Shown piece after piece: positions 14,238 through 17,626 of a stretch of 64,000 bases of DNA. This DNA comes from Myxococcota bacterium (GTDB lineage Bacteria > Myxococcota_A > Bradymonadia > UBA7976 > UBA1532). A program made the translations under genes and the position numbers. Location of the stretch: positions 1-64,000 of the forward strand of contig CAUJDF010000003.1 of NCBI GenBank assembly GCA_963169045.1. Reading direction: 5' to 3'. The number at the start of each line of letters is the position of its first letter. Position 1 is the stretch's first letter. A model generated the notes under the pieces. The model searched no databases. It saw nothing but the letters and a program-made list of their open reading frames with translations, and was not told where the DNA came from.

Positions 14238-14954
14238 GTGGCGGCCCTCGAAGGACAGGTCGCCATCGTCACCGGCGCGTCGCGCGGCATCGGGCGCGTC
14301 GTCGCCGAGCGGCTCGTGGCGCGCGGCGTCCGCGTCACGCTCGTCGGGCGCTCCGACGAGGTGGTGCAGGCCGCCCACGCGCTCGGCCCCGCCACGTTCG
14401 GCGCCCGCGCCGACGTGGCGGACGAGGCCGCCGTGCAGGCGGTGGTGCACGACACGATCGCGCGCTGGGGCGCCGTCGACCTGCTCGTGAACAACGCCGG
14501 CGCCGGCGTCTTCCGGCCCGTCGAGGAGACGGACCTCGCCACGTGGCGGCGCCTCTTCGACGTGAACGTCGTGGGCACGTTCCTGTGCGCGCGCGCCGTC
14601 GTCCCGCACATGAAGGCGCGCGGCCGCGGCACCATCGTCAACGTCGCGTCCGATGTCGGCCGGCGCACGTTCGCGAACGGCGCCGCCTACGTGGCCTCGA
14701 AGTACGCGGTGCGCGGCTTCAGCGGCTGCCTCGCCCAGGAGCTGCGGCCCCACGGCGTCCGCGTCACCACGCTGTGCCCCGGCCTCGTCGACACCTGGTT
14801 CAACGACGCGCAGCCCGGCGGCCCCGAGCGCGCGTGGTGGCTCCGCCCCGAGGACGTCGCCGAGGCCGTCTTGTACGTGGCCTCGGCGCCGCCGCACGTC
14901 GTCGTCGACGAGCTCGAGCTGCACCCCCTCCGGCAGGACTACCCCCGCTCCTAG
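14238..14954 (+). CDS. Short-chain dehydrogenase/reductase
   Basis: A 238-aa classical SDR oxidoreductase using NAD(P). Cofactor motif TGASRGIG at residues 12-19, NNAG at 85-88, catalytic Ser138, Tyr151 and Lys155 (YVASK). Starts with GTG one nucleotide after the DUF962 stop, so the two are probably co-translated. Substrate cannot be read from the sequence; the neighbouring lipid-type gene makes a hydroxy-acyl or fatty aldehyde substrate plausible. Its TAG stop lies in the left CTAG duplication of the adjacent MITE-like element. Confidence 0.93.
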   Translation: MAALEGQVAIVTGASRGIGRVVAERLVARGVRVTLVGRSDEVVQAAHALGPATFGARADVADEAAVQAVVHDTIARWGAVDLLVNNAGAGVFRPVEETDLATWRRLFDVNVVGTFLCARAVVPHMKARGRGTIVNVASDVGRRTFANGAAYVASKYAVRGFSGCLAQELRPHGVRVTTLCPGLVDTWFNDAQPGGPERAWWLRPEDVAEAVLYVASAPPHVVVDELELHPLRQDYPRS

Positions 14955-15114
14955 TGGGTTGCCCCCGAAGTTCGCGCGCCCGAGGCGCGAGCCATCGGCC
15001 CCCAGGGCAAGGCGGGCCGACGAACGCGTCGCCTTGTCCTACGCGGAGGAGGTCCAACGCAGACCTGGGGGCCGAGGGCCGCGACGAAGCGTGCGGAACT
15101 TCGGGGGCACCCCA
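14955..15114. mobile_element. MITE-like foldback element with CTAG target duplication
   Basis: A 160-bp non-coding element. Left end TGGGTTGCCCCCGAAGTTC (14955-14973) and right end GAACTTCGGGGGCACCCCA (15096-15114) are inverted repeats matching at 18 of 19 positions. It is flanked by CTAG on both sides (14951-14954 and 15115-15118). A second, perfect 12-bp inverted pair lies further in (TCGGCCCCCAGG at 14995-15006 and its complement at 15064-15075), so the whole element can fold into one imperfect stem with a loop of about 57 nt. No transposase inside. CTAG duplication is typical of some IS5-type elements; the parent element is not in the window. It may also act as a bidirectional terminator. 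Confidence 0.8.
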
Positions 15115-16536
15115 CTAGAGGATCCTCTTCAGCCAGCGCTGCTTGGTGGGCGTGTAGGGCGGGTACATCAGCGTCGGGTCGATGAGGGTCGGCTTGCGCA
15201 GCACCGCCTTGCGGTGGCTGAAGAGCTCGAACGAGTGGCGGCCGTGGTAGGCGCCCATGCCGCTCGGGCCGACGCCGCCGAAGGGCAGGCCGGGCACGGC
15301 GAGGTGCAGCCAGATGTGATTCACCGCGGCGCCGCCCGACGAGGTGCGCTCGAGCACGCGGTCCTGCGCGGCGCGGTCGGTCGAGAACACGTACAGCGCG
15401 AGCGGCTTGGGGCGTGCGTTGACGAACGCGATCGCCTCGTCGAGGTCGTCGACCGGCAGCACGGGCAGGATGGGGCCGAAGATCTCGTCGGCCATCACCG
15501 GCGAGTCGGCGGCGACGTCGCGCAGCACGGTCGGCGCCAGGTAGCGGTCGGCCTCGTCGTGCCGGCCGCCGGTGACGACGCGGCCGCTCGGCAGCAGCGC
15601 CGTGAGGCGGCGATGGTGGCGCGCGTTGACGATGCGGCCGTAGTCCGGGCTCCGCTGCGGGTCCTCGCCGTAGAACTCGCGGATCGTGCGCGACAGCGCG
15701 TCGAGCAGGTCGTCGTGCCGCTTGCGGTGCACGAGCACGTAGTCGGGCGCCACGCACGTCTGGCCGGCGTTGTACCACTTGCCGAGCGCGATGCGGCGCG
15801 CCGCGACGTCCAGGTCGACCGCGTCGTCGACGAGGCACGGGCTCTTGCCGCCGAGCTCCAGCGTGACCGGCGTGAGGTGCTTCGCCGCCGCCTCCATGAC
15901 GATGCGGCCGACCGCGCCGTTGCCGGTGTAGAAGACGTGGTCGAAGCGCTCGGCCAGCAGCGCGGTCGAGACGGAGACGCCGCCCTCGACGACCTTCACC
16001 GCGTCGGGGTCGAGGTACTCGGGCAGGCGGCGCGCGAGCAGCGCCGAGGTGGCCGGCGCGACCTCGGACGGCTTGACCACGGCGCAGTTGCCGGCGGCGA
16101 GGGCGCCGACGAGCGGTCCCACCGCCAGCTGGAAGGGGTAGTTCCACGGCGCGATGACGAGCACGACGCCGAGCGGCTCGCGCACGATGCGGCTCGTGCC
16201 GGGCTGCACCAGCATCGTCGTCGGCACGCGCTCCGGCTTCATCCACGCGGCGAGCTGCTTGCGCGTGTGGGACGCCTCGTTGGCGGTGAACGAGATCTCG
16301 GCGCTGTAGGCCTCGATGTGCGGCTTGCCGAGGTCCTCGCGGAGCGCCTCGGCGATCTCGTCCTCGCGCTCCTTGCACAGGCGCGCGATGCCGTCGAGCT
16401 GGCGCAGGCGCCAGGCGATCGGGCGCGTCGCGCCGCTCTCGAACCGCGCGCGTGTCTCGCGGACGAGGCCGGGGACGGCGTCGACCGCGGCGGCGTCGGG
16501 GTTGGGTGTGATGCTGCGGCGGGGCTTCGGTGCCAT
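15115..16536 (-). CDS. Aldehyde dehydrogenase, class-3 type
   Basis: A 473-aa NAD(P)-dependent aldehyde dehydrogenase; the length and the hydrophobic C-terminal tail (LMYPPYTPTKQRWLKRIL) fit the fatty-aldehyde/coniferyl-aldehyde group. Motifs: PWNYPF at 130-135, catalytic Glu227 in ELGGKSP, catalytic Cys261 in NAGQTCVAPDYV, EIFGPILPV and PFGGVGPSGMG. The start at 16536 is chosen because the upstream part of the long frame (to 16707) is not conserved-looking and GGGAGGGAC precedes the ATG. Convergent with the SDR gene; its TAG stop lies in the right-hand CTAG next to the MITE. A shared aldehyde/lipid pathway with the SDR and DUF962 genes is possible. Confidence 0.93.
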   Translation of the reverse strand: MAPKPRRSITPNPDAAAVDAVPGLVRETRARFESGATRPIAWRLRQLDGIARLCKEREDEIAEALREDLGKPHIEAYSAEISFTANEASHTRKQLAAWMKPERVPTTMLVQPGTSRIVREPLGVVLVIAPWNYPFQLAVGPLVGALAAGNCAVVKPSEVAPATSALLARRLPEYLDPDAVKVVEGGVSVSTALLAERFDHVFYTGNGAVGRIVMEAAAKHLTPVTLELGGKSPCLVDDAVDLDVAARRIALGKWYNAGQTCVAPDYVLVHRKRHDDLLDALSRTIREFYGEDPQRSPDYGRIVNARHHRRLTALLPSGRVVTGGRHDEADRYLAPTVLRDVAADSPVMADEIFGPILPVLPVDDLDEAIAFVNARPKPLALYVFSTDRAAQDRVLERTSSGGAAVNHIWLHLAVPGLPFGGVGPSGMGAYHGRHSFELFSHRKAVLRKPTLIDPTLMYPPYTPTKQRWLKRIL

Positions 16537-16678
16537 GGCGGGGTCCCTCCCGGACGAAGTCGAACGAACCGCGCGGATGCTACTGCGCGTGATGGGCGGG
16601 CGCGAGCGGGGAACGCCCGATCCGGCGGGCCTGCACGCGACCCTGGAAATCCTCGCCCGAGCCGGTAAGGTGCGGGGC

Positions 16679-17626
16679 GTGAACGACGTCGTCGACCCCC
16701 GCGGCACCGCCTTCGAGCTCTACCGACTCCTGCGCGACATCGATCCGGCGCGAATGCGCGTGCAGCTCGAGACGGGCGTGCGGCAGCGCGTCGACGCCCT
16801 CCGGGCGCGCGTCCGGGCGCTCGCCGAAGCGGCGCCGAGCGGCGCGGTGCGCGAGCGCTTCCGCGAGCTGGCCCACCTGCTCGAGAGCGGCGCGCCGTCG
16901 CTGGCGAACGGCGGCGAGCGGTTCGCCGCGGCGTGCCACGAGCTGCGCGCCGCGCTCGTGCCGGCCTACGAGCGCCTCGCCGCGAGCCTGGCCAACCTCG
17001 ACATCCACGTGCCGTCGCTGCGGCCGACCAACTACAAGCGCAACGCGTTCCACGTGCTGACGGGGCTGGCGATCCTCGTGCTCATCCAGCACGGGCTGGG
17101 TCCGACCGGTCTCATCGTCGCCGCGGGCCTGTTCGCCGGCACGTTCTGGTCGCTCGAGATCGGGCGCCGGTTCTCGCCGCGGCTCAACGCGGCGCTGCTG
17201 CGGTTCTTCCGCCACGTGGCGCACCCGCACGAAGCGTGGCGCGTGAACTCGAGCACCTGGTTCGGCACCGCCATGGTGGTGCTGGCGCTGATGCGCGAGC
17301 CGATGGCGGCCTCCGTGGCGGTCGTGGTGATGGGCTTCGGCGATCCGGCGGCGGCGCTCGTCGGCCGGCGCTACGGCCGCGTCAAGCTGCTGAACGGGCG
17401 CTCGCTCGAGGGCTCGCTCACGTTCTTCGCGGTGGGCTTCGCCGCCGGGCTCGCGGTGCTCACGGCCTACGCCGACTTCCCCTGGGGCCCGCGCCTCGCG
17501 CTCGCCGCCGCGGCGGCGCTCACCGGCGCGGTCGCCGAGCTCGTCAGCCGCCGCGTCGACGACAACCTGAGCGTGCCGATCTCGGCGGCGCTCGGCTTCC
17601 TCGCCGTGCGGTCCGTCCTGCTCTGA
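16679..17626 (+). CDS. Polyprenol/diacylglycerol kinase-like membrane protein (SEC59/CDP-DAG family)
   Basis: A 315-aa protein. The N-terminal ~115 residues are soluble and helical. The rest has about six membrane segments (for example LTGLAILVLIQHGLGPTGLIVAAGLFAG) and the signature GFGDPAAALVGRRYGR...LNGRSLEGSLTFF...AELVSRRVDDNLSVPI, typical of the dolichol kinase/phosphatidate cytidylyltransferase fold (CTP-dependent lipid phosphorylation). The start is set at GTG 16679, which leaves a normal divergent promoter region. An ATG at 16535 would overlap the divergent aldehyde dehydrogenase start codon; ATG 16577 and 16592 are other options. Exact lipid substrate unknown. Confidence 0.85.
   Translation: MNDVVDPRGTAFELYRLLRDIDPARMRVQLETGVRQRVDALRARVRALAEAAPSGAVRERFRELAHLLESGAPSLANGGERFAAACHELRAALVPAYERLAASLANLDIHVPSLRPTNYKRNAFHVLTGLAILVLIQHGLGPTGLIVAAGLFAGTFWSLEIGRRFSPRLNAALLRFFRHVAHPHEAWRVNSSTWFGTAMVVLALMREPMAASVAVVVMGFGDPAAALVGRRYGRVKLLNGRSLEGSLTFFAVGFAAGLAVLTAYADFPWGPRLALAAAAALTGAVAELVSRRVDDNLSVPISAALGFLAVRSVLL

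Follow-up and report, generated by a model that had tools for sequence, protein, structure and literature searches.

The 160-bp hairpin that separates the convergent genes for an SDR protein and an aldehyde dehydrogenase (ALDH) in the stretch of DNA analysed here (64,000 nucleotides, referred to as the window) is very probably a MITE-like, non-autonomous mobile element, presumably inserted in a CTAG shared by the stop codons of the two genes. As judged by sequence comparison, the structured core of the element is retained in sequence and predicted shape across phyla, with differing ends. This conserved core, which was beyond the reach of the first-pass annotation of the window, is a more interesting feature than the insertion at the stop codons.

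The first-pass annotation had described a MITE-like foldback with 19-bp terminal repeats (18/19 matching), internal symmetry and a CTAG on either side, and arm pairing, folding and the flanking letters bear this out (see table). The outer arms, at 14951–14973 and 15096–15118, are 23 nt long and 96% complementary, or 19 nt with 18/19 matches when the CTAGs are excluded, and a second, inner pair of arms lies at 14991–15006 and 15064–15079. Folded as single-stranded DNA, the element has a free energy of −70.1 kcal/mol, against −40.4 ± 3.2 kcal/mol for shuffled sequences, and both strands also fold well as RNA. Open reading frames that cross or overlap the element include 14543–15118 (+) and 14951–16378 (−), with lengths of 191, 85 and 475 aa among others, as is expected where stops are rare (a palindrome at 75% GC); no coding function is apparent for the element.

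Table. Features of the SDR–ALDH locus and of the intervening element (window coordinates).
Feature	Position	Strand	Basis
SDR gene, PF00106, stop inside left CTAG	14238–14954	+	ORF call; Pfam
Left CTAG, presumed target-site duplication, holds SDR stop TAG	14951–14954		sequence; empty sites at class level
Hairpin element, non-autonomous, subfamily A, 160 bp	14955–15114	+	multicopy; fold z = −9.2
Left terminal inverted repeat TGGGTTGCCCCCGAAGTTC	14955–14973	+	arm pairing; ends family-wide
Structured core and its lower stem, 113 nt	14979–15091	+	covariance model R1, 79.9 bits; covariation
Internal loop 5' strand, AAGGCG-GGC-CGACGA, conserved	15009–15023	+	core pattern
Internal loop 3' strand, GAGGAG-GTC-CAACGC, conserved	15046–15060	+	core pattern
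Right terminal inverted repeat GAACTTCGGGGGCACCCCA	15096–15114	+	arm pairing; ends family-wide
Right CTAG, presumed target-site duplication, holds ALDH stop (minus strand)	15115–15118		sequence; empty sites at class level
Aldehyde dehydrogenase (ALDH) gene, PF00171, stop inside right CTAG	15115–16707	−	ORF call; Pfam

A genome search, as suggested in the first-pass annotation, confirmed that the element is dispersed and multicopy. The host genome (G000; 9.0 Mb, ∼75% GC, 109 contigs, 95% complete) contains about 15 near-full copies that are 82–98% identical, together with many partial or shorter derivatives, these counts being derived from sequence searches. Among 58 relatives, matches at the level of DNA similarity were confined to the sister genus, g9. 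A subfamily in genome G008 is 73% identical to the host element, and the elements of genome G012 mostly constitute a third subfamily with little in common beyond the core. The outer ends exist in several versions, and at times the left and right ends of a single copy are of different versions. Short host copies with similar ends but lacking the core (L020, L021, L024 and L028) have an internal junction in common, located at CCGAGG repeats, and stem either from a deletion derivative that is itself mobile or from deletion on several occasions; the core may therefore be unneeded for movement, unless it was lost through later deletions between the CCGAGG repeats. Additionally, a second core-bearing repeat (core AAGGCGAGTTTCGGTCGAAGGCGTGC), with weak R1 matches of ∼20 bits, is located beside host copies at L003 (1772–1882) and L019 (1594–1707). 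A search for a related element on plasmids returned none.

The tetranucleotide CTAG occurs only three times in the window, where base composition predicts 138 occurrences and a Markov model 25, and is so rare that its presence at both ends of the element is not due to chance. All three occurrences are at coding-like TAG stops, two of them being the flanks of the element. This restriction of CTAG to TAG stops accounts for the many copies that sit directly against a stop codon. Indeed, the exact coincidence noted at the SDR–ALDH copy recurs in many others, with the TAG stop of a neighbouring gene lying precisely within the flanking CNNG at 8 of 15 host loci (by an automatic frame call that is poor at some loci). 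Across ∼146 kb of the host genome, a sample in which element loci are overrepresented because of how it was drawn, coding-like stops account for 15 of the 23 distinct CTAGs, and many host copies are located at gene 3' ends. We infer that copies favour stop codons because CTAG is the target, and not through selection alone; target choice by itself could yield the coincidence, to which selection may add. Copies L057, L059 and L065 of genome G008 are apparently inside coding sequence.

To seek evidence for insertion, the sequences on either side of eight G008 copies were joined with the element removed, and relatives were searched for the joined sequences. Two G008 insertions flanked by CCAG on both sides have element-free counterparts with a single CCAG in G012 (L071 versus L165, and L057 versus L173), whereas a third pair, L072 (CCAG/CTAG) versus L197, is weaker; the alignments contain gaps near the element, so that only the immediate junctions are clear, and those of L067, L069, L059 and L064 were left out as too poor at the junction. 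These two empty sites in the sister genus indicate that insertion is precise and associated with a 4-bp duplication. Left and right tetranucleotides, which include CTAG, CCAG, CGAG and CTGG, are often one base apart, yet agree above the shuffled expectation (40 matching middle bases versus 33.1, p = 0.008; the pairs were assigned by eye, with some doubt about where certain boundaries lie). The duplicated CNNG may reflect either a 4-bp cut or a smaller stagger within a preferred CNNG.

At the SDR–ALDH locus, both gene stops were confirmed to lie in the flanking CTAGs (SDR TAG at 14952–14954; ALDH TAG at 15115–15117, minus strand). The proposal that insertion into a shared CTAG duplicated 4 bp stands as regards the mechanism, by virtue of the two sister-genus loci, but no empty orthologue of the copy itself was found: ALDH orthologues are present in four relatives (G006, G008, G010 and G012), and in G006 and G012, the two for which neighbours were listed, the neighbouring gene is not the SDR gene and hence offers no element-free CTAG for comparison. 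The ancestral shared CTAG is accordingly inferred rather than observed, and the copy presumably arose as in the sister genus, by duplication of CTAG. The hairpin would have entered the CTAG that held the TAG stops of both convergent genes, and duplication of the 4 bp would have left each gene with a separate stop codon. The further suggestion that the hairpin serves as terminator for both genes found no support, the element having neither a T-tract nor a terminator-like match, although it is possible that it blocks transcription at the locus.

The core motif, AAGGCG-nnn-CGACGA followed by GAGGAG-nnn-CAACGC, is found inside elements with different ends in several phyla. A degenerate form of the pattern recovered 83 stretches from a collection in which each bacterial and archaeal species is represented by one genome; their titles name Omnitrophota, Elusimicrobia, Planctomycetota, Gemmatimonadota, Fibrobacteria, Krumholzibacteriia, Myxococcales, Aquisalimonas and Oscillospiraceae; taxon names and purity are as deposited, as most are MAGs. 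The Myxococcales MAG record (L152) and L187, the latter from a genome in the phylum of the host, have the same element and locus. Covariance model R1 matched at least 87 of 284 sampled genomes of that phylum, with up to 13 candidates scored per genome, and gave a single match above noise in the window (next best 13.6 bits). Among 40 diverse copies, 16 of 23 pairs show compensatory change, and covariation of the core stems is 0.554, compared with 0.165 for shuffled and at most 0.127 for slid controls, a part of this being expected of any palindrome. That the core letters are invariant reflects in part how the copies were picked, with the pattern or a looser form of it. The pattern-free triplet on each side varies in a largely pair-preserving manner (for example CCC/GGG, CCG/CGG, CGC/GCG, GGC/GTC; CGA/GAG is commonest). 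Some elements of Omnitrophota, Elusimicrobia and Aquisalimonas have a second core in inverted orientation, with model matches in L105 and L114. Among the loci tested, no Rfam 15 match, either at gathering score or as a credible weaker one, was obtained at the element, an FMN riboswitch and one weak match both lying outside it. In Oscillospiraceae, a riboflavin synthase-like gene and a ribBA-like gene flank the element at L151, an FMN riboswitch lies ∼2 kb away, and L153 has the same downstream sequence. The core pattern was not found in viral contigs, nor was the core sequence or a description of the hairpin family found in openly licensed papers.

An autonomous relative with the same ends is a usual, albeit not universal, criterion for a MITE. 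The full-length insertion sequence with the element's ends that the first-pass annotation envisaged was not found in the host genome, in searches of five and of seven genomes, or at nine PF01609 loci (draft assemblies). In the genomes searched, these ends either stand singly or form short pairs and nothing longer: the pairs span ∼164 bp in three genomes whose titles name Fibrobacter, Gemmatimonas and Krumholzibacteriia, and ∼240–290 bp (366 bp in one case) in genomes of Omnitrophota and Elusimicrobia, where a few single ends also occur. Searches of G000, G008 and G012 for two transposase families, Y1 and PF01609, identified no mobilising enzyme. PF01609 transposases are present in all three, but none of the nine loci has paired ends like those of the element, the best ungapped alignments matching 11–16 of 16–21 bases. 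One such host locus, L213 (G000:C2:202707), has 19-bp inverted repeats, TAGGGCGTGTTTGGCAACC, over a span of 871 bp.

An IS5-like DDE transposase with a CTAG target and 4-bp duplication could move the ends in trans, the core being a passenger or an RNA of benefit to the host; this is a substantial possibility, if somewhat short of a probable one. The target duplicated by E. coli IS5 is Py-T-A-Pu, with CTAG the most frequent form (PMC5493358), making a DDE enzyme of similar target choice that acts in trans plausible, and the host genome does carry an insertion sequence of the PF01609 type that ends in the repeat given above. However, CCAG, CGAG and CTGG flanks do not fit YTAR, and a core that is a mere passenger would not be expected to persist across phyla. 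Transposition of a single strand, in the manner of REP/RAYT or IS200/IS605, would have a Y1 enzyme recognise the folded hairpin, the right tetranucleotide being part of what the element carries. The hairpin architecture is consistent with this, as is, weakly, the greater frequency of TA-centred tetranucleotides on the right flank (19/30) than on the left (11/30); however, right tetranucleotides vary within subfamily B, and a search of G000, G008 and G012 (drafts, 93–95% complete) gave no hit to Y1_Tnp (PF01797) at E ≤ 1e-8, rendering it very improbable.

A host role for the hairpin, as a structured regulatory RNA or a terminator retained at gene 3' ends, seems unlikely, albeit less so than a Y1 mechanism, given the strong covariation of the core stems and the 3'-end position of many host copies. 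Against it, both T-tract and terminator match are absent, some G008 copies appear to be located within coding sequence, and the cross-phylum set has neither a bias of core strand relative to neighbouring genes (31 usable loci; a rough result, since 28 others with a called ORF overlapping the element were set aside) nor a bias towards gene 3' ends (30/62 sides, from rough ORF calls). Least probable is that the cross-phylum matches are convergent GC-rich inverted repeats as opposed to one family: palindrome arms always pair, so that some apparent covariation is built in, but the conserved residues fall in internal loops without canonical pairing, the best match in the window outside the element is far below that of the element itself, and 197 of the 284 phylum genomes gave no model match among the candidates scored. 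Within the preferred interpretation of a mobile MITE-like hairpin, our favoured though tentative hypothesis is that a trans-acting factor that would aid spread of the element recognises the folded core, in the form of single-stranded DNA or RNA. More speculative, and somewhat doubtful, is the notion that mobile structured elements of this type make up a pan-bacterial class hitherto undescribed, with a conserved hairpin core containing tandem G-A-type internal loops, interchangeable ends, spread by an enzyme in trans, and CTAG as a safe stop-codon landing site in GC-rich hosts.

The element offers a simple route to near-harmless mobility, which is to target a tetranucleotide that is scarce outside stops in the host genome and then duplicate it. 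Moreover, a structured repeat that has no Rfam 15 counterpart at the loci tested, is common in one phylum and occurs in several others makes its function and its mobilising enzyme concrete questions. Of the known systems, REP/REPIN sequences with RAYT are likewise dispersed palindromes spread in trans, but here no Y1 match was obtained in the three main host genomes and a target duplication is seen. The 4-bp duplication and preference for CTAG are shared with E. coli IS5 (PMC5493358), which is itself autonomous; the IS5-superfamily elements at PF01609 loci of the three host genomes have other ends, and the IS5 preference leaves the CCAG and CGAG sites unexplained. CIR elements of Caulobacter and other alphaproteobacteria are intergenic repeats with a GANTC motif and, like the present element, have a secondary structure conserved across species (PMC2229807), although none of the 83 core-pattern titles names an alphaproteobacterium, and the two are set apart by description. 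A close parallel is with bacterial MITEs such as Correia/NEMIS, RUP, ERIC and YAPL (reviewed in PMC2229807 and PMC10969869), which are short, non-coding, mostly intergenic and present in many copies with terminal inverted repeats and target duplication; the element has the corresponding terminal repeats (18/19), dispersed copies and, at the level of its family, target-site duplication (sister-genus empty sites; p = 0.008). It differs from them in that no autonomous partner with its ends was found in the genomes searched, and in having a structured core that is common to several phyla while the ends differ.
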